Of a DNA stretch of 27,295 bases, positions 1 to 27,167 are shown piece by piece. Below the pieces are notes generated by a model. The model worked only from the letters and a program-made list of their open reading frames with translations. It did not search any database and was not told the origin of the DNA. Location: the IMG/VR virus record IMGVR_UViG_3300028883_000118, positions 1-27,295 of that record; one strand, 5' to 3'. The position numbers were made by a program, and so were the translations under genes. Position 1 is the first letter of the stretch; each line of letters opens with the position of its first letter. The DNA comes from a virus.

Positions 1-1429
1 ATGGACCCAATGCAACAACGGCAAGAGTCTTGAAAACTGCCAGAAGTCCAGCCGCAGCCGAGAGTGCTCCGAGTGCAGCGACAGCATATCCGACATTTTT
101 AACAAGCGTCTTGTTCGCACTGACCCATTCGTTGATTGCTACAACGAAGTCTCGAATTGACAGGGTTGCGTTCTTCAGGTCACCGAGGAAGACAGAGCCA
201 ATGTTGATGGCGAGTTCCTGCAAGGCCGAAAGTAATTGCTTCCCGGCACCCACAAGGTTATTCCCCATCACACGGGCAATCTCTGCTGTTCGTCCGGTGG
301 CCTCATCCATCAACTTATTGAATCGGCGCATCTCAGATGAGCCTTGGTTCAACAAAGCAATGAAGGCGGGTCCAGCACGGAGGCCGAATATCTCCATGGC
401 CTCGGCAGCGGAAATGTTGGCAGCGGCAAATTGGTCAATGAGTCCTGCGAATCCTACAAAGCCTCCCTCAGCATTACGAAGTTCGATGTGCGTCTGTCCG
501 ATACGTTCTGCAAGCGATTGCATTATCTTCTCAGATTTTGCAGTCGGCTTGAACAACTTGACAAGCATACCTCTCAGGGCAGTACCAGCCATGGACCCTT
601 TCAGTCCAGCATTGGCGAGTGCTGACATTGCAGAGACAAGATCGTTGAACTCTACACCCATCCCGGCAGCGACAGGGGCAACGTAGGCCATGGCAAAGCC
701 GAGTTCGGTCAAGTTAGTATTACTGTTCGTGAAGGCTTGGGTCAGCACGTCCATCAGACCCGGAAGTTCGGATACCGAAGCACCGAAACCTGTCATGATG
801 TTGGTGGCTATATCAGCAGCTTGTCCAAGTTCGATATTACCGGCAAGGGCAAGGTTCAGGGCGGGTTCGAGAGCGGCGAGTTGTTGTTCTACATTAAGAC
901 CGGCCATCGCCAAGAATCGGAGACCGTCCGCAGCTTGGGTGGCAGAGAACTCAGTCTTCTCGCCCATCTCCCGTGCTTTCATGGTCAACGAATCAAGGTC
1001 TTTTCCGGTGGCACCCGATACAGCACCGACAGTTGCCATGGCCCTCTCGAACTGAGCAGCCTTGGCAATCGGGAAAGCAATAGTGCCTATAGTCGCAGCG
1101 GCAGTGGTAAACTTGGAGATAAGACTTCCGATACCGGCACCGGCAGACTTGGCAGCAGTACCCATAGCAGTGACTTCTCTCCGGGCCTTCTGGGAAGACG
1201 ATCCGAAAAGACGTAAGGCACCTGCTCCCTTCTTGACTTGGGCTCCCTGCTTTCGGACAGCATCAGTGGCCTTCTCCGTGCCTTTTCTGAGACCGTCCTG
1301 ATCTTTACCTGTCTTCTTAGCCTGATCGCCGAGTTTGCCAAGACCACCGGCAACTGACTTGACTATTCCCCCGGTCTGGTCAATCGCCTTGATAATAACT
1401 CGAATTGTTTTCGTCAGTACGTCAGCCAC
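1..1429 (-). CDS. Phage tail tape measure protein, N-terminal part (runs off the left edge)
   Basis: Translating the minus strand leftward from a GTG at 1427-1429 gives at least 476 uninterrupted residues to the window edge, so the C-terminus is missing. The start follows AGGAG by about 8 bases and overlaps the end of the frameshifted chaperone reading frame. The sequence opens ADVLTKTIRVIIKAIDQTG and then matches the TP901-type tape measure core: an Ala/Gly-rich helical stretch, FERAMATVGAVSGATG, KAREMGEKTEFSATQAADGL and FGLRAGPAFIALL. The family sets tail length, is packed inside the tail tube and helps DNA entry at infection. Its position after two overlapping chaperone products is the usual tail order. 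The gene contains an in-frame copy of the dispersed 14-bp motif at 509-522, read as MQSLA. Confidence 0.93.
   Translation of the reverse strand, partial: MADVLTKTIRVIIKAIDQTGGIVKSVAGGLGKLGDQAKKTGKDQDGLRKGTEKATDAVRKQGAQVKKGAGALRLFGSSSQKARREVTAMGTAAKSAGAGIGSLISKFTTAAATIGTIAFPIAKAAQFERAMATVGAVSGATGKDLDSLTMKAREMGEKTEFSATQAADGLRFLAMAGLNVEQQLAALEPALNLALAGNIELGQAADIATNIMTGFGASVSELPGLMDVLTQAFTNSNTNLTELGFAMAYVAPVAAGMGVEFNDLVSAMSALANAGLKGSMAGTALRGMLVKLFKPTAKSEKIMQSLAERIGQTHIELRNAEGGFVGFAGLIDQFAAANISAAEAMEIFGLRAGPAFIALLNQGSSEMRRFNKLMDEATGRTAEIARVMGNNLVGAGKQLLSALQELAINIGSVFLGDLKNATLSIRDFVVAINEWVSANKTLVKNVGYAVAALGALSAAAGLLAVFKTLAVVALGP
509..522. promoter_or_regulatory. Dispersed 14-bp operator-like motif, copy 1
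   Basis: An exact TGCAAGCGATTGCA lies within the tape measure coding sequence, read as MQSLA on the minus strand, far from any promoter. Confidence 0.68.
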
Positions 1430-2137
1430 GCTTTATGCTCCTATTGAAAGCGGCCAATCTCATCCACTCGTTCTGGACCGCCTTCGGATCTTTTGCGATT
1501 GCTTTAGCCCTACGTACTTTATGGGGTTCTAAAACTATCTTATTGATTCCCTTTTGGGATGCGTGTGTGCCAATCCAATTTGCCATTAGCATCCGGCTAT
1601 ACTCTTGATCGTCCGCTTCCCTCGATGCCCGGATAAATACCCCGATCTCTCCGAGCGAGTACTTCTTTATTTCTTGCCACCCATGTCCTGATCTGACGAG
1701 GAACTGGACGACGTTCCCAAGCCCGTATCCGTCAGCTTCCCGATCTTCCCCGCCAAGTCCAGCAAGTTTTTTTCCAAACCCTCGTGGGAGTCGATGTTAG
1801 CGTCCAGTACAACGCCTAACACATGAACCGCAGCATTTAACGGGAGTCGCTTCAGGTCATCGACGTGAATCCCAGACGCTTTCTGCATTGCTTCCGGTAT
1901 TCGGTCAAGAACCGCAGAAGTCATAGCAATCAACTTATCGATATCTGAGTAGTTCTGGAGAGTGATACCAGCCTCGGTGAGTTCACCTTGGATGCTTTTG
2001 ACATCACGGATGACAGAGGCCAGCGTTTCGAGTCCCATCGGTTTAATCGGAATCTCCGTGGAACCAAGTTTAGCAACTTTCTCTGGTAGAAGTAAATCCC
2101 AATCTGCGTCTGTTAGACGTTTCGCATCGTCACTCAT
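1422..2137 (-). CDS. Tail assembly chaperone, long frameshift form (gpGT-like)
   Basis: The predicted -1 frameshift product has 124 residues in frame 0 (2137 to 1766) and 114 residues in the -1 frame (1766 to 1422), 238 in total. The -1 frame has no stop from the slippery site onward and carries a normal-looking domain: WQEIKKYSLGEIGVFIRAS, then READDQEYSRMLMANWIGTH, ending NRSIKRG. Its stop TGA lies just inside the tape measure gene, whose GTG start it overlaps. No ribosome binding site or ATG would let the second domain be made independently near the junction. Lambda G/GT and most siphoviruses and myoviruses use the same device, with the extension contacting the tape measure protein. Confidence 0.85.
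1667..2137 (-). CDS. Tail assembly chaperone, short form (lambda gpG-like)
   Basis: This 156-residue protein starts MSDDAKRLTDADWDLLLPEK. AAGGAG sits 10 bases before the ATG, which favours this start over an upstream in-frame ATG inside the 14-bp motif. It is small, acidic and helical, and ends in a serine run (SSSSSSDQDMGGKK). It lies between the tail tube and tape measure genes, the conserved place for tail assembly chaperones, which bind the tape measure and recruit tube subunits. A slippery heptamer A AAA AAC is in frame at Glu-Lys-Asn near residue 124, so some ribosomes should shift to -1 and make the long form. Function is inferred mainly from position and frameshift architecture. Confidence 0.85.
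   Translation of the reverse strand: MSDDAKRLTDADWDLLLPEKVAKLGSTEIPIKPMGLETLASVIRDVKSIQGELTEAGITLQNYSDIDKLIAMTSAVLDRIPEAMQKASGIHVDDLKRLPLNAAVHVLGVVLDANIDSHEGLEKNLLDLAGKIGKLTDTGLGTSSSSSSDQDMGGKK
1766..1772 (-). promoter_or_regulatory. Programmed -1 ribosomal frameshift slippery heptamer
   Basis: On the minus strand the chaperone gene reads GAA AAA AAC, giving the canonical heptamer A AAA AAC in the correct phase. After a -1 slip the frame stays open for 114 codons to the tape measure start. The zero frame stops 33 codons after the slip. No downstream pseudoknot was modelled. Confidence 0.88.
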
Positions 2138-2155
2138 TCTGGTATCTCCTTTTGG

Positions 2156-2193
2156 AAAAAGGGGCCGTGCAAGCGATTGCATCCGGCCCCTTT
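2156..2193 (-). terminator. Intrinsic terminator between tail tube and chaperone genes, containing the 14-bp motif
   Basis: On the minus strand the arms AAAGGGGCCG and CGGCCCCTTT (2184-2193 and 2158-2167) form a 10-bp stem and are followed by a T run (complement of the A run at 2156-2160). The segment between the arms is the near-palindrome TGCAATCGCTTGCA, which can extend the stem by about five pairs. A terminator here would reduce chaperone and tape measure expression relative to the abundant tube protein. Confidence 0.85.
2168..2181. promoter_or_regulatory. Dispersed 14-bp operator-like motif, copy 2
   Basis: The plus strand reads TGCAAGCGATTGCA, an exact copy of the asymmetric consensus. 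It is unusual in sitting in the apical part of the tail-tube terminator hairpin, so it could act as DNA operator, RNA stem or both. Confidence 0.8.
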
Positions 2194-2227
2194 CCGATTA
2201 AAGAAAAATTAACGGTTAGGGCAACCC

Positions 2228-3205
2228 CTACGTCATAAGAATATTGAAGTACGGGCTGTCGGGATGGCCAGTTTCATCTTTGAGGACTTCCCCCTCAAAA
2301 CCAAGAGTACTCCAGTCCTCACCGATCATAGCCGTATCACCGGCAGGGGTCAGAGAAGCACGGTGTATCTGAAGCTCCATATTGTTACCAACAGGATTGT
2401 CAGATACAAAACGCAGAGCACCTTCCAACTCGGAGACCGCAATAGCCTTGATCTTCTTGTAGGTGGACGCCTCACACGAACCCTTAATCTTGACATCAGA
2501 GTCCGCAGCGATGGAACCGGTATCCAGCAGTTTAACACGGCCTACGGCAGCATCGACGGTGTAGTCGGTCCCGGCCACATACTGCGTGGTCTCGGTATCG
2601 TCCGTAACGGCCAGCACACCGGAAGTAATGGCACCAACCCCGGTGGTATCAGCGGTTGCAGAACTGGTCCCGCCTGTAATTTCTTCTGCGGCTTGGAAAG
2701 TTCCGACCACAGTAACAAGCTTCAGAGAATCAGCAGATTGCTCGGCAACAACAGCGGTTGCAGCACTGGTCCCACCGGTTACGGTTTCCCCGATCTCGAA
2801 AGGGCCACCGACTGTGTTTTCAATGGGAAGGACGAAGATCCCAACGGCCCGTTTGGACAGCTCCACAAAGCGGTCAAGGGTGACTTCTGTGAAGTCATCC
2901 GTAAAATCCGCAATGGCCTGTACTACGGACTCAACCTCGCCCATTGTGAGCAACGCAAGGTTTTCGTCGGTAATCTCATCCAGCGTGAAGGCAACTCCCG
3001 GAGTGATCTCGTTAATCACCTTCTTATCCTTGGCCCGGAGTCCACCCCGGCTGGAGTAGTGCTCCAGAGCCGCCAGTTCAATATTGAACGTAAATTCGGG
3101 GGCGTTCCCCAGATCACGTTCACCCTTGTAAGAGCCATCAGTTTCCTTCTTATTGAAGTAAACAATGCCCTTCCCAAGAGTATAATTGTCAGTACTCGGA
3201 GTCAT
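2228..3205 (-). CDS. Major tail tube protein with a duplicated inserted motif
   Basis: The 325-residue protein starts MTPSTDNYTLGKGIVYFNKK; GGAGG lies 8 bases before the ATG. The N-terminus (GKGIVYF, then FTFNIELAALEHYSSRGGLR) and the segment DYTVDAAVGRVKLLDTGSIA resemble tail tube proteins of long-tailed phages, and the gene sits just before the chaperones. Residues about 136-185 contain two copies of a motif of the form GPFEIGETVTGGTSAATA and GTFQAAEEITGGTSSATA. They are also similar at DNA level (near 2651 and 2753, 102 bp apart). This looks like an inserted, duplicated beta-rich module that may decorate the tube surface. An intrinsic terminator follows the gene. Confidence 0.82.
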   Translation of the reverse strand: MTPSTDNYTLGKGIVYFNKKETDGSYKGERDLGNAPEFTFNIELAALEHYSSRGGLRAKDKKVINEITPGVAFTLDEITDENLALLTMGEVESVVQAIADFTDDFTEVTLDRFVELSKRAVGIFVLPIENTVGGPFEIGETVTGGTSAATAVVAEQSADSLKLVTVVGTFQAAEEITGGTSSATADTTGVGAITSGVLAVTDDTETTQYVAGTDYTVDAAVGRVKLLDTGSIAADSDVKIKGSCEASTYKKIKAIAVSELEGALRFVSDNPVGNNMELQIHRASLTPAGDTAMIGEDWSTLGFEGEVLKDETGHPDSPYFNILMT

Positions 3206-3222
3206 AGCGTTTTCCTCCCATG

Positions 3223-3675: not shown

Positions 3676-3678
3676 TTT

Positions 3679-5368: not shown

Positions 5369-6295
5369 TTATAAGTCAGGGTCAAGGCCGTCAACTTTGA
5401 CCACAGCGTCTTCCTCCTCGAACTTCATATCGAGGCGCATGGTCAAAACAACCACCAGCACACGAGCACGAATATCCCGGTCGGTCTCTATCATGATCTG
5501 GCGTTGAACACCCATGATGAGGTTTTTCGGGTACGTGAAGATGCCCTTGGCGTTCGGCATCAAAGCCGCAGGTCTGACGGGGATACCGTAAGCATAATTC
5601 GGCATCCATCCAACAACTTTCCGATCACCCAACGGGGTTTCCCGGTTAGACAGGCTGTCTGCATACTCAATTTCCGCATGCGGGGAAACATAGTGACGCA
5701 TCGCAGCACGGTTTCGCAGGTACTTGTTGGGCATGGCCCGAAGCATCTGCTTAAAGACTGTCTTCTCAACGGCGACCGGTGTGGCGGTGTGATCAACGAC
5801 ATGGGAAGTGGCCTGTACCAGAATCCCGTCCAGCAGATTGAGGTAGGTATCAACGGAGCCGGTGTCACCCAGAATCAACAACTCCTCCAGATCGAGCGCA
5901 GCCCGTTCGGTGATGAGGGTCATGATCGTGGACTCCAAAGATCCACGTTCGATGTTGTCTTCCAGCACATCGTACGGAATCTGGACTTCGGCAATGACTT
6001 CCTTGGTGGCAAGCTCTACCTTGTCAGTGGTCGGTTTCGTGCGGTCGGCAGCGGCTAAAGCTTGGCCCGAAGCAGGGGCTCTCCGCATGATTCGATCTGC
6101 GAACCCGATTTTATTGATCTCCATGGTGGGCGAGTTCATCGGCACCACACGGATCTCATTCAAAAGAGTTGGCTGTTCGATCAGCATACGGATAAACGTA
6201 TTGGCCTGAATCGGATTTAGGTAACCGCCATTGGAGATGAGATCACCGACCGCAATGTCGGCTTTTTCAACAATGGATCGATTGCTTTCTTTCAT
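5369..6295 (-). CDS. Major capsid protein, HK97 fold
   Basis: The 308-residue protein starts MKESNRSIVEKADIAVGDL, with AGGAGG 10 bases before the ATG. Visible capsid features include an N-arm leading to GGYLNPIQANTFIRMLIEQ, an E-loop-like VPMNSPTMEINKIGFADRI, the helix LEDNIERGSLESTIMTLITERAALDLEELLILGD, and a C-terminal GIFTYPKNLIMGVQRQIMIETDRDIRARVLVVVLTMRLDMKFEEEDAVV. The last element, a beta strand pair with RDIRA followed by an EEEDAVV-type end, is typical of HK97-fold capsids. The protein follows the protease and scaffold genes and precedes the connectors. One copy of the 14-bp motif lies about 50 bases upstream of the start codon. Confidence 0.85.
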   Translation of the reverse strand: MKESNRSIVEKADIAVGDLISNGGYLNPIQANTFIRMLIEQPTLLNEIRVVPMNSPTMEINKIGFADRIMRRAPASGQALAAADRTKPTTDKVELATKEVIAEVQIPYDVLEDNIERGSLESTIMTLITERAALDLEELLILGDTGSVDTYLNLLDGILVQATSHVVDHTATPVAVEKTVFKQMLRAMPNKYLRNRAAMRHYVSPHAEIEYADSLSNRETPLGDRKVVGWMPNYAYGIPVRPAALMPNAKGIFTYPKNLIMGVQRQIMIETDRDIRARVLVVVLTMRLDMKFEEEDAVVKVDGLDPDL

Positions 6296-6344: not shown

Positions 6345-6358
6345 TGCAAGCGATTGCA
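6345..6358. promoter_or_regulatory. Dispersed 14-bp operator-like motif, copy 3 (upstream of capsid gene)
   Basis: TGCAAGCGATTGCA on the plus strand, an exact copy, lies in the 74-base gap between the scaffold gene end and the capsid gene start. No convincing promoter is visible in the same gap, so a block to elongating polymerase or a processing site is as likely as promoter control. Confidence 0.78.
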
Positions 6359-6369
6359 GAGCAGCCAAA

Positions 6370-6741
6370 TTAAGCCTTTGCGGTCAGCAGCCCCGAAAAG
6401 ACACTCATGTCAACGCCGGAGGTTTTGGCCGGGGTCTCTTTGGTGTCACCGTCTTTGGTGTCCGCAGTATCCGACTTTTTAGCATCGGCGTCCGCAGTGT
6501 CACCGTCCTTGGCGGCGGCGTCCGTGTCACTTTCACCATCCAGCTTCTCCGTCTTCTTGACCAGAGTGTTGACGGTTTCGGCCATTTTCTGCACCGTATC
6601 CGTCAGGGTGGCGAAGTCCTCGTCACGTTTTTTGGCCGCAGCCTCCTGTGCCTTGGTGTCCTCGGTTTCCCGCTTTCTTGCATCACGGGCATCGAGAATA
6701 GTCACCACAGCGTTCGTGAACTCGTCTTTCGTTTTAAACAT
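6370..6741 (-). CDS. Possible internally initiated scaffold fragment (same frame)
   Basis: Inside the scaffold gene, AAAGGAG lies 8 bases before an in-frame ATG at 6739-6741. Initiation there would yield 123 residues consisting only of the coiled-coil, acidic and C-terminal parts. Lambda C/Nu3 is the classic example of a scaffold made from an internal start in the protease-scaffold region. The spacing and strength are as good as at annotated starts in this genome, but the purine-rich stretch also encodes Asp-Lys-Gly-Glu and could be coincidental. Confidence 0.4.
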   Translation of the reverse strand: MFKTKDEFTNAVVTILDARDARKRETEDTKAQEAAAKKRDEDFATLTDTVQKMAETVNTLVKKTEKLDGESDTDAAAKDGDTADADAKKSDTADTKDGDTKETPAKTSGVDMSVFSGLLTAKA

Positions 6742-7497
6742 TTCAACTTCTCCTTTGTCAGTTAGTTGGTTTTGATCCTCTGCCGGTTTGGTAAACTTGT
6801 CGGGTTTGCCGTCGAGCTTGGCAGCGTTCTTATCCAACGCATCAAGACCCATGGAAATGAATGACTTGTATCCGTCGATTGCCGCCAGAACCGCAGACTT
6901 GCGTTTCTTTGAATCGGTGGCAGATTGACGGAGCAGACCATGGACTACATCCAGCATCGAATAAGTCTCACGGTCAAACAGATCAGCAAACTTCTGGGCA
7001 AGGACAGCGTTAGCATCAGGATTCCCCACAATAGCATCCATGGGGGCGGTCGGGAGGTCCGCTGCCTTAGCTGTATCTTCCTCACCCAAGGTGATAACGT
7101 TCTCCACCCCAGAGTCAGGAATTAATTGACCCGCAAGAGCAAACGCCCCGGAGCCATCCAGCTTAACCAGTTTAATAGACCCTTCATCGAACTTCTCGAC
7201 CGAAACCTGTGTAAGCTTGGTGAAGCTATCAAAGGATTCAGACTTTTCAGCCGATACCTCAGACAGCCAATTCATTCCACTCTTTGAAGACAGATCCCCG
7301 ATGGTCGTACCGTTCGGCAGCAGGATACTCTGGACGACCATACTTTTCACAGTTTTGTTACCTCCTTTCTCAGCTTTTACAACCCGGAAGGGTTGCCGGG
7401 ACGCAGCATGCTTCACCAGCGAAACAAAGTTAGCCCGTGGGTTAGTTAGTAAAGTAATACTCTTTTTGACTTCTTCCGTCTCGGTATTCAAGCCCAT
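6370..7497 (-). CDS. Putative scaffold protein with XkdF-like N-terminal segment
   Basis: The 375-residue protein starts MGLNTETEEVKKSITLLTNPR after AAGGAG. The N-terminal ~45 residues (TNPRANFVSLVKHAASRQPFRVVKAEKG) resemble the SLVKxGAxxxPFxxvK segment that often accompanies XkdF-type phage proteases. The rest is acidic and helical: residues about 253-345 (MFKTKDEFTNAVVTIL, RKRETEDTKAQEAAAKKRDE, TLVKKTEKLDGESDTDAA) look like a coiled-coil scaffold with a low-complexity Asp/Ala/Lys linker. A conserved-looking tail (SGVDMSVFSGLLTAKA) ends it. Its place between protease and capsid genes fits a scaffold. A strong internal ribosome binding site suggests a second shorter product. Confidence 0.7.
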   Translation of the reverse strand: MGLNTETEEVKKSITLLTNPRANFVSLVKHAASRQPFRVVKAEKGGNKTVKSMVVQSILLPNGTTIGDLSSKSGMNWLSEVSAEKSESFDSFTKLTQVSVEKFDEGSIKLVKLDGSGAFALAGQLIPDSGVENVITLGEEDTAKAADLPTAPMDAIVGNPDANAVLAQKFADLFDRETYSMLDVVHGLLRQSATDSKKRKSAVLAAIDGYKSFISMGLDALDKNAAKLDGKPDKFTKPAEDQNQLTDKGEVEMFKTKDEFTNAVVTILDARDARKRETEDTKAQEAAAKKRDEDFATLTDTVQKMAETVNTLVKKTEKLDGESDTDAAAKDGDTADADAKKSDTADTKDGDTKETPAKTSGVDMSVFSGLLTAKA

Positions 7498-7516: not shown

Positions 7517-8125
7517 TCAAATGAGGACCAACCGGTGTCCGTGGTCGATCTCGGAGCCGGTAGCAGTCGCTTTCTCTATGGGGTGCTGGTGGTCCAAAGA
7601 CCAATCGGTAAATTGCCCCGGCAGCACTCGACCATTCCCATCGAATGAAATATCGCATTTATGAATGTGCGGTGGCAACGGTCCATCTTCAGACTTCTCC
7701 GTATCGCCGTATGCCCTGACAACCATTTGAACAACGGCTTCGGCAGGTACTCGGTCAACAGAACCAGAAAAGGAGAACCCATTAAGTTCTCCCTTCATAA
7801 CTTTTTCCCACAGCGGGTCAGGATGTACTTTCACTCCTAATACCCATGATCCGGCGACAAATCCATCTGGGTCATTTTTCATTGCTATAAATGATCGGAT
7901 GACTTCTGCTCCAGATTCCACCTCGTCATGCTCAACGTCAATCTTACTAACGAGGTGATCCTCCATGAATCGTTGAGCCATGATGCCGATGTCCTCCTGC
8001 GTCATGGTCTCACCGTCTGTATCCAGACGAAACGGGGAGTATACCTCCCCGTAAACGATTCGTTGTTTCTCATCCTTAACTACCATTTTTCCAGTTGCAA
8101 GCGATTGCATATTTTCAGCCCTCAT
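7517..8125 (-). CDS. Prohead protease, XkdF type (peptidase S78_2-like)
   Basis: The core reads KIDVEHDEVESGAEVIRSFI, then GSWVLGVKVHPDPLWEKVMKGELNGFSFSG. This is the pattern of the phage serine protease XkdF family, with the His of DVEH and the Ser of GFSFSG as likely catalytic residues. The enzyme cleaves scaffold and capsid precursor inside the prohead. It directly precedes the scaffold and capsid genes. Up to 202 residues are possible. The start is uncertain: an ATG at 8123-8125 has only a weak purine-rich site, while an ATG near 8086 (MVVKDEKQ) lies just downstream of the 14-bp motif. With the longer start the motif encodes MQSLA near the N-terminus. Confidence 0.85.
   Translation of the reverse strand: MRAENMQSLATGKMVVKDEKQRIVYGEVYSPFRLDTDGETMTQEDIGIMAQRFMEDHLVSKIDVEHDEVESGAEVIRSFIAMKNDPDGFVAGSWVLGVKVHPDPLWEKVMKGELNGFSFSGSVDRVPAEAVVQMVVRAYGDTEKSEDGPLPPHIHKCDISFDGNGRVLPGQFTDWSLDHQHPIEKATATGSEIDHGHRLVLI
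8096..8109. promoter_or_regulatory. Dispersed 14-bp operator-like motif, copy 4 (start of protease gene)
   Basis: An exact TGCAAGCGATTGCA lies at the 5' end of the protease gene, either within its first codons or just before its start, depending on which ATG is used. Confidence 0.78.
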
Positions 8126-9526: not shown

Positions 9527-10063
9527 TTATAAGATTATAGGGAGCCTATCTCCCTTCCTGAAGTTTCGGTACTTTGGAGCAACATGCGATACTCCCAGAG
9601 CGAAGAAAATCTGCCTCTCATCCTTGCCAGCGATTTGATCATCTCCGAGCCAAAGTCCGTATCCGTTAAGCGTGTACTCCAAAGACGCAGCATGTTGCTG
9701 CATCAATCGAGTAAATAATAAGTTGCCGGTATGTAGTAACGTAGCAGCACCCCACTCGTTATCATCCGAGTCGTACAAGTACACCGGAAGCCCATTTGCC
9801 AAGAAGCCCCTCCCAACAGTAGCTCCTCTGGAAACGGGAAGTTTACTTATGCTTAATCCTCGCCTCCGTAGCGCCCGTGCAACGGACCTCCTATTTAATG
9901 ATGTCCTATCACATATAATCGGAATAGAGCCCACATTCGCCAAATCAGACCGCCTCATAGATCCACAAACGGTGTATCGGCAAGACGATTTTTCCAGTGT
10001 AGCAGTGACGTGAGAGGCAATCACGGTTGCAACTTCGAGTTCTACTGTCCTAACCTGTCTCAT
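9527..10063 (-). CDS. DNA polymerase X-like protein lacking catalytic carboxylates
   Basis: The 178-residue protein starts MRQVRTVELEVATVIASHV after GGGAGGGG and overlaps the gene upstream by 14 bases. Residues 30-52 (YTVCGSMRRSDLANVGSIPI) align with the Pol X palm signature GSxRRGxxxxGDIDIL. Residues 91-120 (LPVYLYD then WGAATLLHTGNLLFTRLM) match the later xDLFxxxxxxWGxxLxxxTGxxxFN region. The end (LNGYGLWLGDDQIAGKDERQIFFALGVSHVAPKYRN) matches the thumb/C-terminal pattern. In active enzymes Asp/Glu stand where this protein has Ser46, Pro48 and Tyr95, so polymerase chemistry is unlikely. It may bind DNA ends or gaps, perhaps aiding the ligase encoded in the same operon. The fold call is by motif reading only. 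Confidence 0.72.
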   Translation of the reverse strand: MRQVRTVELEVATVIASHVTATLEKSSCRYTVCGSMRRSDLANVGSIPIICDRTSLNRRSVARALRRRGLSISKLPVSRGATVGRGFLANGLPVYLYDSDDNEWGAATLLHTGNLLFTRLMQQHAASLEYTLNGYGLWLGDDQIAGKDERQIFFALGVSHVAPKYRNFRKGDRLPIIL

Positions 10064-10526
10064 CACCCCTCCCACAATTAGGGCATTTACCGGTCCCGGT
10101 AAAATCAACGGTTTGCTTACCGTAGCGTTCCCGGTATTCTATTGTAAATTCACTTTCCCGGCTCAATGCTCCAAAAGCCATGCACTCGCCACAAGCCCAT
10201 CGCAAGCCCCCGGCAGCAACTTCCTTCTCAATATCTCTCTCAATTCCTAAGCAACTTTCACATAGAAAAGGAGACGGAACACTCATACTAGCCATCGACT
10301 TTTCGCCCCTATTCTTAAACTTGTTACAGCCGCAGTGGTGACACCGGATAGGTAGTGCTGCCCCCGGTGGCATGAAGAACTCCATCTCACAGTGCTCACA
10401 TGCAAAGCGCAGCACAGCGCCAACAGCTTCCTCAAACCCATTCTTCTCACCACAAATAGGGCAGCACATCGGCAAAGGGTTTAGTCCGTACTTTTTTGAA
10501 ACGACGATATGAAGTCCGATACCCAT
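10050..10526 (-). CDS. Multiple zinc-ribbon protein (six CxxC pairs)
   Basis: The 158-residue protein starts MGIGLHIVVSKKYGLNPLPM with GAGGAGG 4-5 bases before the ATG. CxxC pairs occur at residues 22/25, 43/46, 62/65, 89/92, 112/115 and 148/151, enough for three four-cysteine zinc sites. The pairs are spaced 17-33 residues apart, typical of rubredoxin-like or transcription-factor zinc ribbons. A nucleic-acid-binding or protein-scaffolding role is likely. It is encoded between the PolX-like gene and a helical protein, in the same operon as a DNA ligase. The specific function is not known. Confidence 0.75.
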   Translation of the reverse strand: MGIGLHIVVSKKYGLNPLPMCCPICGEKNGFEEAVGAVLRFACEHCEMEFFMPPGAALPIRCHHCGCNKFKNRGEKSMASMSVPSPFLCESCLGIERDIEKEVAAGGLRWACGECMAFGALSRESEFTIEYRERYGKQTVDFTGTGKCPNCGRGDETG

Positions 10527-10878: not shown

Positions 10879-10892
10879 TGAAAGCGATTGCA
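10879..10892. promoter_or_regulatory. Dispersed 14-bp operator-like motif, copy 5
   Basis: TGAAAGCGATTGCA on the plus strand, one mismatch to the asymmetric consensus. It lies 4 bases upstream of promoter B's -35 element and abuts the end of the gene at 10893. Confidence 0.72.
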
Positions 10893-14328: not shown

Positions 14329-14541
14329 TCACTCCTTCTCATCACTCTCCATGCCGGGAAGCTGACCGTTCCCTCCGATCCGGGCCAGTGCAATCGATTG
14401 CAACTTAATCCGCAAGGAATACTCGAATTTTAGACTATGTGAGCAGTACGGCTGATCCGTACACCTATACAAACAGACTAATGAGTGCTTAAATTGCTCA
14501 TCCCGGTCGCACCAATATGAATCAGATACGTAGTGTTTCAC
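14329..14541 (-). CDS. Small hypothetical protein with GTG start
   Basis: The 70-residue frame starts at a GTG overlapping the stop of the upstream gene (the last codons AGG AGG AAA CCG TGA supply the AGGAGG). The protein (MKHYVSDSYWCDRDEQFKHS) has four cysteines and no recognised motif. It contains the palindromic 14-bp motif in frame, read as LQSIA. Translational coupling and a strong site support it as a real gene. Confidence 0.62.
   Translation of the reverse strand: MKHYVSDSYWCDRDEQFKHSLVCLYRCTDQPYCSHSLKFEYSLRIKLQSIALARIGGNGQLPGMESDEKE
14389..14402. promoter_or_regulatory. Dispersed 14-bp operator-like motif, copy 6 (perfect palindrome)
   Basis: TGCAATCGATTGCA, a perfect 14-bp palindrome, lies inside the small gene at 14329 and 94 bases upstream of promoter C's -35. 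Confidence 0.78.
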
Positions 14542-14941: not shown

Positions 14942-16486
14942 TTATTTTATGTTTTGAATAGTCTGGTATGCAAAATAGCTGTCGTAAGTTGTCAGCCGTA
15001 TCCGAGCCATCTGAGCCACAAAACCTTCGTCGTGATATTCATAACGAATGTGCGAGATTTCGTGTATGGCCTTATCTTTTAAGTCTTCTACCAGTATCCG
15101 TCGCTTTTTGAAAATGGCTTTTTGGTAAGGCGTTCCATTTAATACGAGTTCGGGATTCAAGTAAAAGTAGTACGTTCCATCCAACTGTTCTATCTGGGCC
15201 TCCACATCAGACTCTAAGGTAAAACCACATGTGAAGGATACAAAATTTCCGCTTGAGAGCAACACTTCCTTAACTACTTCCGTCCACATAAGCGCAAGAA
15301 CATTAGCTTTTCGGGACCGCATGAATTTCTTGCATTTGGCGTCATCCTGAGACTCACATTTGGTGACGAAATCTGGCCGGTATCCGATCAAAGCCATTCT
15401 ATCCTTATAATCGTAAGACCAGTCCTCGGCATAATCAGAGTTCTTGGCGGCAGCACCGATCTGTGCGAGTCGATGCTCCAGCAGTGTACTCTCATGGCCC
15501 TCTAAATTCAATCGGGCAATCATTTCCTTTGAAAGATCACGAATAGAATCGTTAATAGCTCCAGCATCATATCTGACAACGTTCTGGAGCGACTCGTCCA
15601 GCGCCTCTCTTGCCGCAGCAAGCTCGATCACGCCGGTTCCTTCATATTTCCGGCGAATTATCTGCTTCTCCGGTTTCAAGGCCTGTGTAGTATCAGCGAT
15701 CAATCGCTTCAAAAACTCGTCAAGCTCTGTTTGGTAACGTTCCTGCAAACCATCCCGATTGGAAGTCAAACATTCCAGACTATTTTTCGTAATCTCGATT
15801 GTCACAGCCCCGATATCCGACCCGATAAATTTGGAAAACATCCAAACACCGTTGATTCTAACTTGCAGGGAGCGGGCGTCCGTGTCATCTTTAGTATGAA
15901 ATATTTGACACCACCCCAGATCCCGAACAAAACTGCCCCGATGCCATGTGGTTTCAACGGGATGTCCATCAAAGCTGATGTTACATGGCGTTTCCATCAG
16001 ACCAGCGACAAATTTACCGTGTGATATCAGCGTCTCGATTGTAGTAGATTCCAGAGATTGCTCGGAAAGCTCGATGGTACAACGAGTCCCGTTGACATTC
16101 TTCTCGGATTCCTTTATAGTGTACTCGTTGTGCTCCCCGGTTACGTCCAGAGACTTCGTTTTAATACGATAGTTCGGCCAAGAGAAAAATAAAAGCTCCT
16201 TAGCCTTTCCAAATGCACCAACAGAACCAGATGCTTTCTCGGTCCCGCCCAGACAAAACAACTTGTTCTGGAGGATATCCAGCGTCATACCGGTCCCGTT
16301 ATCAGAAATGGTAACTTTCCCGGCCTTGATGTCGGTGGCAACCTTTATTTCCGTAGCTCCCGCATCGATGCTATTCTGGAAAAACTCTCTCCACAACGCT
16401 TTCTGCCAATCTCGGTAATCCTTCGTTGCCATCGTAAAGAAGTAATCACGAGGAATTTCAACTGTTCCGCTAATGGGCTGATTCAT
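14942..16486 (-). CDS. GHKL-type ATPase fused to an HExxH metallopeptidase-like C-terminus
   Basis: The 514-residue protein starts MNQPISGTVEIPRDYFFTMA with GGAGG 6-7 bases before the ATG. GHKL (Hsp90/MutL/MORC-like) motifs are clear: N-box EFFQNSIDAGA (Glu34, Asn38), G1 box DNGTGM (62-67), and the ATP lid GGTEKASGSVGAFGKAKELL (80-99). A middle helical region of about 200 residues follows. Near the C-terminus HEISH at 475-479 with His485 (HExxH-x5-H, then DE) matches a zinc metallopeptidase active site. An ATP-driven clamp joined to a peptidase suggests nucleotide-controlled proteolysis or a host-takeover or anti-defence function, but no substrate can be inferred. It is the first gene after promoter D, apparently expressed early. 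Confidence 0.85.
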   Translation of the reverse strand: MNQPISGTVEIPRDYFFTMATKDYRDWQKALWREFFQNSIDAGATEIKVATDIKAGKVTISDNGTGMTLDILQNKLFCLGGTEKASGSVGAFGKAKELLFFSWPNYRIKTKSLDVTGEHNEYTIKESEKNVNGTRCTIELSEQSLESTTIETLISHGKFVAGLMETPCNISFDGHPVETTWHRGSFVRDLGWCQIFHTKDDTDARSLQVRINGVWMFSKFIGSDIGAVTIEITKNSLECLTSNRDGLQERYQTELDEFLKRLIADTTQALKPEKQIIRRKYEGTGVIELAAAREALDESLQNVVRYDAGAINDSIRDLSKEMIARLNLEGHESTLLEHRLAQIGAAAKNSDYAEDWSYDYKDRMALIGYRPDFVTKCESQDDAKCKKFMRSRKANVLALMWTEVVKEVLLSSGNFVSFTCGFTLESDVEAQIEQLDGTYYFYLNPELVLNGTPYQKAIFKKRRILVEDLKDKAIHEISHIRYEYHDEGFVAQMARIRLTTYDSYFAYQTIQNIK

Positions 16487-16582
16487 AATGTGACCTCCGT
16501 TTTGCTTATGATTTTCGCTATTTTGGTGGTTTTTAGTCAATTTCTGCCATCCTTTTAAATGAATTTTTTGTATCCAGACTTA

Positions 16583-16611
16583 AACTTATAATAGGTATGA
16601 AGTTTTGTCAA
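16583..16611 (-). promoter_or_regulatory. Promoter D, conserved phage promoter family
   Basis: TTGACA (16606-16611) with TAAGTT at 17 bases or TATAAG at 15 on the minus strand. The spacer (AAACTTCATACCTATTA) matches promoter C except for two bases. A leader of about 90 bases runs to the GHKL ATPase start. The 14-bp motif lies 33 bases upstream of the -35. The 154-base gap 16487-16640 holds no gene. Confidence 0.75.
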
Positions 16612-16640
16612 GGATAAAAGCTCACGGACGGGCCATATTC

Positions 16641-16904
16641 TCATTGCAAGCGATTGCACCGGTCCTCACTTCTATTGGCAACGTATATCATAATACCGAA
16701 AATACCAAGCCCTACATAGTTCACCCATGGGAACCAGCCCCCGTCTGACCATGCAAGCAATATGCCAAGAAGCCCAATGCTACATCCAACCAGTTTCCTA
16801 ATAAGCCTAATCATAATGACTTCCCCAATGCCGGACTCGTAATCACCTGAAGGTGACCCGATCCCGTATTCTTTAATATAGTGGATAGCATAAAACCTAT
16901 GCAT
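16641..16904 (-). CDS. Small membrane protein
   Basis: The longest frame is 87 residues (MHRFYAIHYIKEYGIGSPSG). An internal ATG at 16812-16814 has the better site (GGGGAAG, 5 bases) and would give 57 residues starting MIRLIRKLVGCSIGLLGILL. Two hydrophobic spans (CSIGLLGILLAW and WVNYVGLGIFGIMIYVA) separated by a DGGW turn make a hairpin inner-membrane protein. The last codons coincide with a copy of the 14-bp motif (encoding CNRLQ), and the stop follows immediately. It could be a holin-like or exclusion protein. The sequence does not decide. Confidence 0.62.
   Translation of the reverse strand: MHRFYAIHYIKEYGIGSPSGDYESGIGEVIMIRLIRKLVGCSIGLLGILLAWSDGGWFPWVNYVGLGIFGIMIYVANRSEDRCNRLQ
16645..16658. 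promoter_or_regulatory. Dispersed 14-bp operator-like motif, copy 7
   Basis: An exact TGCAAGCGATTGCA overlaps the last codons of the membrane protein gene, 33 bases upstream of promoter D's -35. Confidence 0.78.
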
Positions 16905-16917
16905 CCATTCTGACCGC

Positions 16918-17658
16918 TCAGATTGCCTCAGAACACCATTTTTCGATTAGATTCGGTTTGAAGTCGGAAACGGCGCAGAATTGATTTTCGGGGTTACGTT
17001 GACTCTCATACGAGAAGTCACAACCCTTTATGACCATACCCTCACAGTTGACATAGAGTTGTCCACCCGATACATAGATCACCTCATCGTCTCCTCCGTA
17101 GGACTCACATTCATAACTGTCTGGAGACTGCTGGCGTCCTCCCCACTCGATTGCATTACCCTCTGCAATGACCCCAGACCCACCATAAAGATTTTGAGAT
17201 TTCAAGTCGTGATATTTCGGATGGGCGAAGCTCAGAACCTCAAGCATCTTAACGTTCTCCGGCGGGGCTTTCAAGTGGTAAACGTCATTAGACCATGCAA
17301 GTCCGCTGATCTCGTTGTCCGTACAATAGCACCATAACTCCATCACCGCAAAGATAAACTCCTTAGTAACCTCTACGGCATTAGTGGCAATGTAAAAACT
17401 TCCGATCTCAACGTTCTCATCCCTAAACAGTTGGGTAACCTCACGAATGAAAGCCGGTCTCAGTGACGGTTCCCCACCACTAAACGTGATATTACGAATC
17501 TCCGTTACGTTTCCATTACGAAGGAACGTGCGGACTATTTCAATGTCCATATCTACAGGCTCCGAAGAACCCCGCAAGCAGTGCTGGCAGGTAAGCTGGC
17601 ACCGCCTCGTAACTTCAATAATAACGTCGTCAAGCTTAACTGTTTTTTCGTTTCGCAT
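16918..17658 (-). CDS. Radical SAM enzyme
   Basis: The 246-residue protein starts MRNEKTVKLDDVIIEVTRRC; GGAGG is 6 bases before the ATG, so an upstream in-frame ATG is rejected. CxxxCxxC at Cys20, Cys24 and Cys27 binds the 4Fe-4S cluster that cleaves S-adenosylmethionine. SGGEP at 60-64 is the SAM amino-group motif. Later cysteines (NCEGMVIKGCDFSYESQ and a Cys near residue 225) hint at a second metal site or a degenerate SPASM/twitch-type end. It lacks a recognised partner peptide or base-modification gene nearby, so the substrate (peptide, nucleotide or tRNA) is unknown. Its end precedes the small membrane protein gene. Confidence 0.88.
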   Translation of the reverse strand: MRNEKTVKLDDVIIEVTRRCQLTCQHCLRGSSEPVDMDIEIVRTFLRNGNVTEIRNITFSGGEPSLRPAFIREVTQLFRDENVEIGSFYIATNAVEVTKEFIFAVMELWCYCTDNEISGLAWSNDVYHLKAPPENVKMLEVLSFAHPKYHDLKSQNLYGGSGVIAEGNAIEWGGRQQSPDSYECESYGGDDEVIYVSGGQLYVNCEGMVIKGCDFSYESQRNPENQFCAVSDFKPNLIEKWCSEAI

Positions 17659-17965
17659 GCATGTCCTCCGCAAGATAATATAGCTGACCGGCAGCTTTTT
17701 GAATAACACTATCCTCGTCGGCTTCCTTATAAATCGCAATAAGCAACAACTGGATATCGGGATCACCATAGTCAAGTCGCTGTGAAATCAACTCCCGAAT
17801 GGCTGCGAGGTCTTCATATAGCTCCTCGGCAGACTTTTTCTCACTGGCCTTCATTAGTCCAGCAGTTACCATAGCTTCGTGCGACCCTGCCATGTCCTGA
17901 CAGGCACTTGAAATCCAACTGATTATCTCGCTTGCCTCTTGTTCGATGCGTTCGATATCACTCAT
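17636..17965 (-). CDS. Acidic helical protein, unknown function
   Basis: The 109-residue protein starts MSDIERIEQEASEIISWISS after ATAGGAGGTCACA. It is almost entirely helical and acidic, with KKSAEELYEDLAAIRELISQ in the middle. It overlaps the radical SAM gene start by 23 bases, indicating coupled translation. No family recognised, although an accessory role to the radical SAM protein is conceivable from the overlap. Confidence 0.7.
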   Translation of the reverse strand: MSDIERIEQEASEIISWISSACQDMAGSHEAMVTAGLMKASEKKSAEELYEDLAAIRELISQRLDYGDPDIQLLLIAIYKEADEDSVIQKAAGQLYYLAEDMHAKRKNS

Positions 17966-18581: not shown

Positions 18582-18827
18582 TTAGCCAAGCTCACATTCA
18601 AGATATTCATAGCATAAATTACTAATGGTATCGACGGTTAAGAACCCAATGGCTTCGGGTGCCTGCAACTCGATTGCCGCAAAAGCCGCATCAGCAAGCG
18701 GGTGCAGGATGGGCGGCTTGTCTTTTTTGAATATTTCCAGCGCAGTATGACCAGTTGGCCGGGTCAGAAAGTCAAGACTACCATTCTCAAACGCTTGTTT
18801 TAATTTGGTTTTCGTCGTTTCGTCCAT
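18582..18827 (-). CDS. Small helical protein
   Basis: The 81-residue protein starts MDETTKTKLKQAFENGSLDF with AAAGGAG 8-9 bases before the ATG. It is predicted helical, with the central segment LHPLADAAFAAIELQAPEAI and two Cys near the C-terminus (NLCYEYLECELG). No motif recognised. It lies in the promoter E operon between two other unknown genes. Confidence 0.68.
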   Translation of the reverse strand: MDETTKTKLKQAFENGSLDFLTRPTGHTALEIFKKDKPPILHPLADAAFAAIELQAPEAIGFLTVDTISNLCYEYLECELG

Positions 18828-19409: not shown

Positions 19410-19423
19410 TGCAAGCGATTGCA
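19410..19423. promoter_or_regulatory. Dispersed 14-bp operator-like motif, copy 8
   Basis: An exact TGCAAGCGATTGCA in intergenic DNA, 34 bases upstream of promoter E's -35. Confidence 0.8.
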
Positions 19424-22896: not shown

Positions 22897-23181
22897 CTAC
22901 CCTCCTAACAGATCCTTGGCCGGTAGTCGTTTTACTCGTCTTTTCAACACCTTATAGTTTTTCTCATCCATGCGACCACTGATATGAAACACAACTTCTT
23001 TTCCTGATTTGAGTACGAGTGTGATAACCGAGTCAATCGGGTTAAATATACGATCATGGTAGGCACGATAAGAACAAGTAAGGGCAGCGAGAAAGCCTCC
23101 TTTAGTACGAACCCTCATCCTTTGCGTGTGACTACTATCCTCTGTAAACCGCAGGTTAGTCCACTTCTCCGGCATCTTCAC
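22897..23181 (-). CDS. Small basic beta-rich protein
   Basis: The 94-residue frame begins at a GTG overlapping the upstream stop (GTGA), with GGAGGG 8-10 bases before it. The sequence (MKMPEKWTNLRFTEDSSHTQ) is basic with several beta-like stretches (SVITLVLKSGKEVVFHISGR) and a very basic end (KVLKRRVKRLPAKDLLGG). It may bind nucleic acid. No family recognised. Confidence 0.63.
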   Translation of the reverse strand: MKMPEKWTNLRFTEDSSHTQRMRVRTKGGFLAALTCSYRAYHDRIFNPIDSVITLVLKSGKEVVFHISGRMDEKNYKVLKRRVKRLPAKDLLGG

Positions 23182-23747
23182 GTAGCTATCCCTCCCATCT
23201 CAATTAAAGGAGCAACGGTTACCTTACGTGTCTCCTCATTTACCTTCAATCCGGCTGGAATCCATCCACGGTCCCCTACATGATCCCAGATCTCAACCTC
23301 ATTCAGCAGCTCGAATAGAGTAACTTCCCGGTAAATGACAAGCCAATCCTTCGGGTCTGCCTTCCATAATTTAGCAGTATCCGCAAGAGCCTTGGCATGG
23401 GCGGCATGACCAACCTTAAAAAGTTTCTTGCGATAGTTGTTCCACCCGCAAAGCTGGTTAGGGAAACGTCTGCAATCGATTGCAAATCTTATGGCCCGGA
23501 ATCCGGTCGCTTCATAAAATTCATCACGAGCAAGCGGCTCGGTCGAGAGTACAGATTCGCCAGTTACCTTATCCACAATAACGGTCTTCTTGCGGACGGT
23601 CTCCTCCCAGACAGGATTCTTTGAAAACCAAACACCTTGAGGCTCTCCCGGCAACGGTTCTACTGGAGTAAGCCTCAGATGTCCGTCCGTTAAAATAGGT
23701 GTAGCCTTGTATTCATACGTGTAGTGCCATGCGATCTTATCAGGCAT
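23178..23747 (-). CDS. WHYT/VWFS protein, possibly ADP-ribosyltransferase-like
   Basis: The 189-residue protein starts MPDKIAWHYTYEYKATPILT with GGAGG 7 bases before the ATG, which decides the start. The order WHYT...IL..GHLRLTPVEPL, then GVWFSKNPVWEETVRK and RFAIDCRRF, resembles a recurrent phage hypothetical family. The HYT...LxxGxL...WFS layout loosely recalls ADP-ribosyltransferase folds such as DarT. That link is inference only. The gene contains a perfect copy of the 14-bp palindrome in frame (residues FAIDC). A role in modifying host targets is possible. Confidence 0.62.
   Translation of the reverse strand: MPDKIAWHYTYEYKATPILTDGHLRLTPVEPLPGEPQGVWFSKNPVWEETVRKKTVIVDKVTGESVLSTEPLARDEFYEATGFRAIRFAIDCRRFPNQLCGWNNYRKKLFKVGHAAHAKALADTAKLWKADPKDWLVIYREVTLFELLNEVEIWDHVGDRGWIPAGLKVNEETRKVTVAPLIEMGGIAT
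23471..23484. promoter_or_regulatory. Dispersed 14-bp operator-like motif, copy 9 (perfect palindrome)
   Basis: TGCAATCGATTGCA lies within the coding region of the WHYT/VWFS gene, with no promoter of the conserved family close by. Confidence 0.68.
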
Positions 23748-23943
23748 GCTGATACCTCCCAATTCTAATCTTCCTGATACCTCGTTCATAACGATCCTCA
23801 TCGACACAGGCTCCACGAATACCGGCATCCCTACGGATCGTAGCAAGCACCGTATCTACCTGATATCCCGCAGCTAACATCGTCTTCCCTTTCCTAATAA
23901 GGTCAGCTCTCCCGCCAGCAGCTTTTATGAGTCTTGCGTCCAT
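23740..23943 (-). CDS. Small basic protein
   Basis: The 67-residue protein starts MDARLIKAAGGRADLIRKGK after AGGAGG and overlaps the next gene by 8 bases. It is basic and helical, with ATIRRDAGIRGACVDEDRYE in the second half. No family recognised. Confidence 0.63.
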   Translation of the reverse strand: MDARLIKAAGGRADLIRKGKTMLAAGYQVDTVLATIRRDAGIRGACVDEDRYERGIRKIRIGRYQHA

Positions 23944-23955
23944 GGTACACCTCCT

Positions 23956-24722: not shown

Positions 24723-24730
24723 CAAGCCTC

Positions 24731-25305: not shown

Positions 25306-25308
25306 TGC

Positions 25309-26284: not shown

Positions 26285-26321
26285 AGTAAATTACCTCCTT
26301 GCTCGTCTAAACGTTACCCGA

Positions 26322-26561
26322 TCAGGCTTCCCCTATCGGTCTCGGAATATCCGCCTTCTTTTTCAACCTGTCAACCGTTTCCTCCAGAGCTAAAATCATC
26401 ATATCTCTTTCGCAGTTACTCAAATAATTAGAAACACCGGGCTTGCCGGGAGGAAACACCAACAGCACAAAGCCCATCTTCCCCACGGTCTCACGAAGGG
26501 CACGATCGATCCCCAAACCCAACTGTTCCATCACGTCTTCCGTCCACTGATAATCTACCAT
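26322..26561 (-). CDS. Conserved small phage protein
   Basis: The 79-residue protein starts MVDYQWTEDVMEQLGLGIDR; AAAGGA 8 bases before this ATG favours it over a longer frame. The pattern KMGFVLLVFPPGKPGVSNYL, then SNCERDMMILALEETVDRLK is one I recognise from a widespread family of small phage and bacterial hypothetical proteins, function unknown. It is in the promoter G operon. Confidence 0.72.
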   Translation of the reverse strand: MVDYQWTEDVMEQLGLGIDRALRETVGKMGFVLLVFPPGKPGVSNYLSNCERDMMILALEETVDRLKKKADIPRPIGEA

Positions 26562-26562
26562 A

Positions 26563-26757
26563 TCACAATTCCTTTCTGTAAAGATCCCTGAGCCGGTTCG
26601 CAACCTCCACCCGCATCCATAAAGGACCATCAATTCCAGCAACCTGTACCTCGGTCACACCTTTCGCATACAACTCGAAAGCCGCAATATCTCTGGGCCT
26701 CAATCGGTACGCCGATCTGATAATATCCATAATCTCTTTTTTGGTCAATTCACCCAT
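26563..26757 (-). CDS. Small basic protein
   Basis: The 64-residue protein starts MGELTKKEIMDIIRSAYRLR and overlaps the upstream gene by 13 bases. It has a helix followed by beta-like IAAFELYAKGVTEVQVAGID and a basic end (LWMRVEVANRLRDLYRKEL). No family recognised. Confidence 0.65.
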   Translation of the reverse strand: MGELTKKEIMDIIRSAYRLRPRDIAAFELYAKGVTEVQVAGIDGPLWMRVEVANRLRDLYRKEL

Positions 26758-27104
26758 CTTTCAGCAGCCCTAATCCTTTCCCGGCAGTCTGGGCAACGTT
26801 CGCACAGATCGATCTTGCTCAGTTCCACATCGACCAGCCGGTTCCAATATTGCGGGTATATCGTCTCGAAGTCAGGAACATCAACGAGTGGACTGTTGTG
26901 TTTCCCTCCCCGCCTCTCTATCTCACGGGCAAGCAGATCATGCCTCTCGACGTATCCCTGAAATTGAATCTGGACCGTGGGGTGGAATCGTCCCGACACC
27001 TTGTATCCCTTACGGAACACCCACAGGTGCTTGTGCATCTCGTAGTGCTCCCCACCCAGATGCTTCTTGCATAACAGAACAGGATCAACCATCCACATCC
27101 TCAT
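26745..27104 (-). CDS. Pyrimidine-dimer DNA glycosylase-like protein (endonuclease V family)
   Basis: The 119-residue protein starts MRMWMVDPVLLCKKHLGGEH and continues EMHKHLWVFRKGY. This matches the MRMWxVDPxxLCxxHLxGEHxExH pattern of phage and bacterial proteins of the T4 endonuclease V (Pyr_excise) family, with RHDLLAREIERRGGKHNSPL following. T4 DenV removes UV-induced pyrimidine dimers and nicks the DNA. Whether this divergent subfamily keeps that activity is not shown. The C-terminus adds a CxxC pair (CERCPDC) not found in T4 DenV. It is the first gene after promoter G and so may be expressed early. Confidence 0.78.
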   Translation of the reverse strand: MRMWMVDPVLLCKKHLGGEHYEMHKHLWVFRKGYKVSGRFHPTVQIQFQGYVERHDLLAREIERRGGKHNSPLVDVPDFETIYPQYWNRLVDVELSKIDLCERCPDCRERIRAAERWVN

Positions 27105-27153
27105 GCCCGTTTCGCCCCTTCCCGAAATTCACCCATCTTTCAACTCCCCAAAT

Positions 27154-27167
27154 TGCAATCGATTTCA
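27154..27167. promoter_or_regulatory. Dispersed 14-bp operator-like motif, copy 10
   Basis: TGCAATCGATTTCA, one mismatch to the palindrome. Unlike copies 5-8 it lies downstream of its promoter, 9 bases beyond the predicted -10 of promoter G, where a bound protein would block initiation. Confidence 0.68.

Follow-up and report, generated by a model that had tools for sequence, protein, structure and literature searches.

Why does a single 14-bp palindrome recur across a viral genome, and which protein would recognize it? The question is raised by a 27,295-nucleotide stretch of DNA (positions 1 to 27,295 of IMG/VR record IMGVR_UViG_3300028883_000118; hereafter, the window), in which a sequence-only reading had reported ten dispersed copies of a palindrome that it likened to LacI/GalR-family operators. 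The analysis described here points to a different answer. The palindromes are probably the sites of a dimeric, ParB/Noc-type protein encoded by the phage itself, here called A2 (phrog_17202), and the resulting lattice of bound sites would silence or organize an extrachromosomal phage genome.

All ten copies were confirmed: eight are exact matches to TGCAANCGNTTGCA (starting at 509, 2168, 6345, 8096, 14389, 16645, 19410, and 23471), and two carry one mismatch (10879 and 27154). With up to two mismatches allowed, the window contains 11 matches against 0.91 expected, and the maximum in 100 dinucleotide shuffles was 4; the copy number is thus above chance, as had been claimed. The eleventh match, at 18693 (two mismatches), is probably fortuitous. 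Conservation is confined to the 14 bp, and the flanking letters differ between the copies. The window (G000) corresponds to nucleotides 320–27586 of a longer record, IMGVR_UViG_3300028920_000076 (G001; 61,141 bp), at 99.5% identity. This record, found via an identical capsid protein, holds 20 copies (18 exact and 2 with one mismatch), or about 1 per 3 kb. The uniform orientation reported for the asymmetric copies holds in the window and is lost beyond it: among the exact asymmetric copies of G001, 11 of 15 point one way and 4 the other, and the corresponding numbers in another record, G002, whose site is identical to that of the window, are 9 and 3.

The window encodes a tape measure, a major tail protein, a major capsid protein (MCP), and an XkdF-type prohead protease. 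It has no megablast-level DNA similarity to named phages. A search with the capsid protein matched 216 named phages, every one at less than 60% identity; these include phages of Vibrio (32), Pseudomonas (12), Rhizobium (6), Rhodobacter (5), and Stenotrophomonas (4), together with 127 Streptomyces phages that were left out of the array analysis. Among these relatives are phages of 79–102 kb, e.g., Stenotrophomonas DLP3 and DLP5, Vibrio VHS1 and SIO-2, and Rhodobacter RcZahn, while L338C was reached via RecA and not via the capsid protein. A related capsid protein is also encoded by the Bacillus plasmids NZ_CP120624.1 and NZ_CP155622.1 (51–54 kb).

Is the palindrome peculiar to this phage? A dispersed palindrome, the sequence of which varies from phage to phage, was found in 43 of 50 whole records, which were analyzed in batches of 31, 11, and 8. 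The records are not all independent, because G000 lies within G001 and several others are close relatives. In the first batch, a de novo count of near-palindromic 14-mers revealed a single palindrome at 4–46 copies in 30 of the 31 records (Tunturi_4 was without an array), while no palindrome exceeded 2 copies in any of 93 Markov shuffles (3 for each record). The 11 records of the second batch were chosen for having A2 (the A2 search matched 16 of 31 records); an array was found in 6 of them, with G035 and G047 only modestly above a single shuffle, and was absent or unclear in the other five. The third batch consists of 8 of the 15 records without an A2 match, the remaining 7 lying outside the whole-record counts, and 7 of these 8 showed 4–17 copies in a count that involved no shuffle comparison. 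The usual half-site is TGCAA followed by two variable bases; others include TGACCAC, TGAAATT, CGCAAAC, TACAATT, GCGCCGC, and TGCACAC, and many of the relatives' palindromes, e.g., TGCAATTAATTGCA, are without the central CG step. Exact matches to TGCAANNNNTTGCA numbered 47 in L338C, 31 each in DLP3 and DLP5, 25 in V-YDF132, 17 in RHph_TM16, 16 in HJ05, 15 in RHph_Y1_11, 9 in RcZahn, 3 in SIO-2, 2 in KarBoss, 1 in LV6, and 0 in VHS1 and Tunturi_4. A weight matrix detected degenerate arrays of 26–43 sites in SIO-2, KarBoss, LV6, and VHS1. Many dispersed copies with a phage-specific sequence, the pattern expected of stoperators, are thus found across related phages, and the suggestion that the copies serve a phage DNA-binding protein as dispersed operators or stoperator-like elements is supported.

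The candidate binder is A2, whose reference member is encoded by ORF 16476–17300 of G009; the profile of PHROG 17202, which is annotated as being of unknown function, matched all 22 members scanned. A2 was found in all 30 records having RecA and at least six sites. It is also present in 24 of the 24 array-bearing records that include its neighborhood, from which two other conserved proteins, a MerR-like protein and a ParB_N-domain protein, are missing in 6 and 5 cases, respectively. A2 and RecA have the same distribution over 42 records, both being present in 36, and another 8, fetched and negative for A2, all lack RecA as well. Since the two sets of records are identical, the absence of A2 tracks the absence of the replication module. 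The window and G001 contain neither an A2 gene nor RecA; as RecA is lacking too, the replication module is missing from these two records, and, judging from its relatives, the phage of the window would be expected to encode an A2 of its own. Because 11 of the 42 records were fetched for having A2, the independent support is limited to the 24 of 24 records above and to five bacterial records, taken from 11 loci found through the capsid protein, all five of which tested positive for A2. A2 adjoins RuvC in several records and an AAA ATPase in others. In the circular 109-kb Rhizobium plasmid p7, which carries 42 sites, A2 follows RuvC and a site lies between the two genes.

The two other proteins were also located. 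A separate ParB_N-domain protein (G009 L226:5868–6761 and homologues) is encoded, in many of these phages, near a 679-aa ORF taken as TerL, and it might act in trans with A2. A conserved small MerR-like protein with a basic N-terminus and a helix-turn-helix (HTH) recognized by eye (G009 L227:2345–2779 and homologues) belongs to the replication module.

Part of the evidence for A2 is its co-variation with the sites. This was examined in 30 of the 36 records with A2, a minimum of six sites again being required, by a partial rank correlation between site distance and protein-window distance with the RecA distance controlled, a procedure that includes no formal phylogenetic model. The control proteins were represented in 30 (RecA), 28 (AAA), 29 (TerL), 27 (MCP), 24 (MerR), and 20 (ParB_N) of these genomes. 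In the 14-column scan, residues 84–97 ranked first among the 220 A2 windows (r = 0.526), and none of the 1893 windows of the six control families reached the value of this segment in the matching genome subsets. The best MerR window gave 0.247 against 0.495 for the A2 helix, and the best ParB_N window gave 0.327 against 0.411. In the 10-column scan, the five best A2 windows all lay between residues 83 and 98, with a single RecA window out of 325 attaining the value obtained for A2 residues 82–93. By eye, changes in the YRKAMY helix accompany changes in the half-site, such as TGAAA with YRTGKH and TGACC with YRPAMY, the exceptions being W02 and G047. Contrary to an informal expectation, the A2 of p7 (site TGCAAC) has IYE, not the IYT of two other TGCAAC phages, and the next F is kept.

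The co-varying segment coincides with a helix predicted at residues 84–99 in an AlphaFold2 model of A2 made from 20 phage sequences. The mean predicted local distance difference test score (pLDDT) was 87–95 across residues 31–150 and fell below 50 in residues 1–24, and the predicted template modeling score (pTM) of the whole model was 0.47. VIA-align was used to re-rank Foldseek's own list, and the structural comparison is therefore confined to the listed entries. Within that list, the top match was Spo0J–parS (4umk; Z 11.3, 115 residues, root mean square deviation (rmsd) 3.7), and Noc–NBS (6y93; Z 10.3, 112 residues, rmsd 3.0) and Caulobacter ParB–parS (6t1f; Z 9.8, 108 residues, rmsd 2.6) were also among the best; ParB, Spo0J, and Noc accounted for 11 of the best 13 entries (Z 8.5–11.3), the remainder being Raf1. 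The ParB_N (CTPase) domain gave no match at E ≤ 0.5 in any of the 22 A2 members. From the modeled fold, we read A2 as a putative ParB-type DNA-binding domain that is without the CTPase domain. The specificity of ParB and Noc is determined by the HTH together with the helix next to it (PMC7383237). In a hand alignment, which is not a tool output, R85 and K86 of A2 are paired with ParB positions 173 and 174. The sites of the arrays match the ParB/Noc type in shape (a 14–16 bp palindrome), and they co-vary with the A2 helix. Direct binding of A2 to the palindromes is, in our judgment, very likely, and A2 would presumably bind as a dimer.

How are the sites placed along the genomes? In the 33 records having at least six sites, the spacing was more regular than random (p < 0.05) in 25; in G001, the coefficient of variation of the inter-site spacing is 0.28. 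By crude ORF-based gene calls, 344 of 830 sites (41%) are intergenic against 92 expected, a 3.7-fold enrichment. The 250 bp upstream of the gene contain a site for A2 in 12 of 30 cases and for AAA in 15 of 28, as compared with 425 of 3092 genes overall. In G002, G007, G009, G014, and G022, the AAA gene directly precedes A2, and a palindrome precedes the AAA gene. Since only 41% of the sites are intergenic, silencing alone would not suffice to account for the even spacing; because the sites are evenly spaced and not restricted to promoters, the lattice probably also organizes or protects the phage DNA.

The lifestyle of these phages bears on what such a lattice might do. A tyrosine integrase was found in just 1 of 13 records (serine integrases were not searched for), and an integrated-prophage lifestyle was set aside on this basis. 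DLP3 forms stable lysogens, DLP5 was isolated as a phagemid, and the authors of the DLP3 study inferred phagemid lysogeny from ParB domains, which they described in two proteins (PMC7326821). The VHS1 genome is extrachromosomal in its lysogen (PMC3148565); another paper describes VHS1 as capable of integration and its lysogens as unstable (PMC10671443). In two bacterial genomes (4.8 and 4.5 Mb), the pattern TGCAMYYRRKTGCA had zero matches off the phage-bearing contig: in the Roseococcus genome, 18 of 20 matches fall in one 95-kb stretch with a phage capsid gene and A2, and the other two are on the same contig, while all 29 matches in a Hyphomicrobium metagenome bin are on the phage contig. In the 309-kb contig C4 of G053, site clusters occur at 113–170 kb and 229–264 kb, and extra A2-like matches occur at 160.9 and 244.5 kb; a second A2-like match is likewise present in G054.

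On these grounds, the following mechanism can be proposed. Each phage would encode its own A2 variant together with a matching palindrome, and A2 dimers bound every few kb would span the whole phage chromosome in the cell as a lattice. This lattice would repress the A2 gene or its operon and site-proximal transcription, much as stoperators and the KorB sites of plasmids do, and would block or dampen transcription genome-wide; we consider the chances of such silencing and immunity about even. The evenly spaced A2 may further organize or protect the extrachromosomal phage DNA, a role to which we give somewhat less than even odds. A more far-reaching version, offered only tentatively, is that in a large family of phages a stripped-down ParB-type protein, free of CTPase and ParA and reading evenly spaced private palindromes, packages the intracellular chromosome. 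The resulting lattice, a viral counterpart of a nucleoid or centromere, would be silencer, immunity system, and maintenance device of the extrachromosomal prophage at once, and its specificity would diverge as that of heteroimmune phages does.

Several results speak against A2 as the binder or against the roles proposed for it. When the bases of the sites were compared with protein columns by simple mutual information, RecA columns scored equally high, so this test is confounded. At a width of 10 columns, an AAA window scored marginally higher (0.489) than the best window of A2 (0.486), and the helix window 84–97 was chosen after a similar scan had been viewed. As for the fold, Foldseek with the A2 model returned nothing significant (best E 0.42); chance Z values for helical models range up to about 13, and the unrelated Raf1 scored 9.7 against A2. 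The ParB and HTH_ParB Pfam profiles had no match at E ≤ 0.5 in the 22 A2 members, and a search of PDB sequences with the A2 profile yielded nothing relevant and no ParB. In terms of distribution, the capsid-related 56-kb record G021 has no array, and six A2-bearing records (W06, G018, G043, G044, G045, and G046) have no convincing one; W06, G043, G045, and G046 are also without this capsid family. Among the RecA-found loci (up to 21 kb), fewer than three palindrome copies were present by a strict count in 18 of the 25 with A2, as well as in 50 of the 52 without it. The distant A2 homologues are thus mostly without arrays, and for this reason they may act otherwise or use undetected sites. With respect to placement, the majority of the sites (486 of 830, by the same crude gene calls) are genic, and A2 is only fifth of 33 gene families in the frequency of an upstream site, the families outranking it including a tail-protein family (8 of 11), AAA (14 of 25), and a protease (11 of 22). 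Finally, some members of the phage family, such as R21Y, are described as lytic (PMC10671443).

The rival explanations share part of this evidence. A purely architectural lattice, with which A2 organizes, compacts, anchors, or segregates the chromosome while the promoter-proximal sites are incidental, would agree with the over-regular spacing, the ParB/Noc-like predicted fold, the extrachromosomal maintenance of relatives, and the position of A2 next to RuvC or the AAA ATPase. The intergenic enrichment, the recurrence of sites before A2 or AAA, the absence of ParA, and the lack of a CTPase domain in A2 are at odds with it, and we regard it as doubtful. The absence of ParA also tells against a classical ParABS system, in which a ParA-like motor would act on the palindromes as a dispersed centromere: AAA_31 (ParA) was found in 0 of 24 records, with the control positive in 14 of 14 genomes (ParM and TubZ were not searched for), and the sites are spread genome-wide without clustering. 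The predicted fold and the phagemid lysogeny proposed by the DLP3 authors from ParB domains (PMC7326821) are in favor of such a system, and the AAA+ ATPase beside A2 could serve as an unusual motor, yet we consider it unlikely. The idea of partition sites, one of those put forward in the sequence-only reading, is half right: it fits the kind of binder predicted here, but no ParA motor was found in the 24 records.

Could another protein occupy the sites? Stoperators of a different phage repressor would be consistent with the stoperator-like copy number, the partly intergenic placement, the HTH_3 proteins above the cut-off in 4 of 23 records, and the distant A2 homologues without arrays. Against this, the remaining candidate families tested are missing from several array-bearing records, and the MerR-like and ParB_N windows co-vary less with the sites than the A2 helix does, a comparison that covers these two families and not every phage protein; this explanation is, if anything, still less likely than ParABS. 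The MerR-like protein and the ParB_N-domain protein near the terminase are themselves conceivable binders, both being conserved in many of these phages, and RacA, a MerR-type protein, binds dispersed palindromes. Their absence from 6 and 5 of the 24 array-bearing records, respectively, and their weaker co-variation disfavor both, and it would be surprising if either were the binder. The explanation with the least to commend it is that the palindromes serve as operators of a LacI/GalR-type catabolic regulator of the host or act as a sponge for it. The symmetry of the window palindrome with its central CG had suggested it, but none of 20 phage records contained the LacI HTH (PF00356; the control was positive in 9 of 14 genomes), the sites vary between phages and often lack the CG, and in the two host genomes examined they are confined to the phage-bearing contigs; both the operator and the sponge can be discarded with near certainty. 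The assignment of the sites to A2 thus remains the one we prefer.

Returning to the window, the ten copies are placed as follows.

509..522, minus strand: copy 1 (TGCAATCGCTTGCA on the gene strand), within the tape-measure gene 2–1429; exact match
2168..2181, minus strand: copy 2, in a terminator-hairpin loop 3′ of the major tail protein gene 2228–3205; exact match
6345..6358, minus strand: copy 3, flanked by ORF 6370–7497 and the major capsid gene 5369–6295; exact match
8096..8109, minus strand: copy 4, 5′-terminal in ORF 7517–8125 (prohead protease), the start codon of which is uncertain; exact match
10879..10892, minus strand: copy 5, between two ORFs, with a promoter-like CTTGACAAAA element 3 bp downstream; one mismatch
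14389..14402, no strand: copy 6, the fully symmetric TGCAATCGATTGCA; exact match
16645..16658, minus strand: copy 7, with a promoter-like CTTGACAAAA element about 32 bp downstream; exact match
19410..19423, minus strand: copy 8, with a promoter-like CTTGACAAAA element about 33 bp downstream; exact match
23471..23484, no strand: copy 9, fully symmetric, within ORF 23178–23846; exact match
27154..27167, no strand: copy 10, about 29 bp 3′ of a CTTGACAAAA element and about 50 bp 5′ of ORF 26745–27104; one mismatch

The location of one copy in a terminator, as originally described, was verified for the copy at 2168. A promoter-like CTTGACAAAAC followed by TATTATA or a similar sequence occurs six times on the minus strand (10866, 14286, 16603, 19367, 20792, and 27197). 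Four of the six CTTGACAAAA elements have a palindrome within 80 bp, as compared with 0.34 expected (p = 0.0006), and the element possibly represents a phage-specific promoter class. A strict sigma-70 promoter scan showed no clear association with the palindrome sites, and an Rfam scan of the window gave zero matches. Other genes of the window, all on the minus strand where a strand is given, include the large ORF 14942–16540, which has an HSP90/GHKL-type ATPase domain at its N-terminus and, at its C-terminus, a HEISH motif that by eye resembles a zinc protease; ORF 9527–10108, whose sole match is a DNA polymerase beta thumb domain and which lies near an ATP-dependent DNA ligase (11227–12786); a radical SAM protein (16918–17775); and a pyrimidine-dimer glycosylase (26745–27104).

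If the proposed reading is correct, a likely role can be given to a conserved phage protein hitherto of unknown function, and a ParB-type DNA-binding domain would be able to work without a CTPase clamp or ParA. It would also provide a mechanism of immunity and maintenance for phages in which the classical HTH_3 repressor is rare. The roughly 30 protein/site pairs constitute a protein–DNA code open to direct testing. The signal is genome-wide in cultured phages (DLP3 and DLP5, V-YDF132, RcZahn, L338C, and HJ05), and no description of it was found: the open-licence PMC papers searched contained none of dispersed phage palindromes with ParB-like proteins or of TGCAATTAATTGCA, and the string "palindrom" does not occur in the main text of the DLP3 paper (PMC7326821). 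A survey of ParB CTPases deals, in the sections concerned, with the CTPase fold and not with orphan DNA-binding domains (PMC12704722).

Four known systems resemble the arrays in part. Noc–NBS of Bacillus subtilis is among the best structural matches of A2, and ParB/Noc specificity diverges via the HTH and the adjacent helix (PMC7383237); unlike Noc, A2 is phage-encoded, has no N-terminal CTPase (ParB_N), and has sites about 3 kb apart across the whole replicon. KorB of plasmid RK2 is a ParB-type protein that silences plasmid genes from repeated short operators (O_B) near and far from promoters (PMC11790492), but it is a CTP clamp working with KorA, whereas A2 is without the CTPase domain. The stoperators of L5 and Bxb1 are 24–34 dispersed repressor sites, phage-specific and with correlations between HTH and site (PMC3029335); the L5 sites are 13-bp, asymmetric, and one-directional, while those described here are evenly spaced 14-bp palindromes in both orientations, and their candidate binder is ParB-like by its predicted fold. 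The master repressor of prophage SPbeta, MrpR, binds a 15-bp element, SPBRE, that recurs in many promoter regions (PMC10516654). This repressor is recombinase-like, and the sites it binds lie in promoter regions, whereas more than half of the sites in the present arrays are genic.

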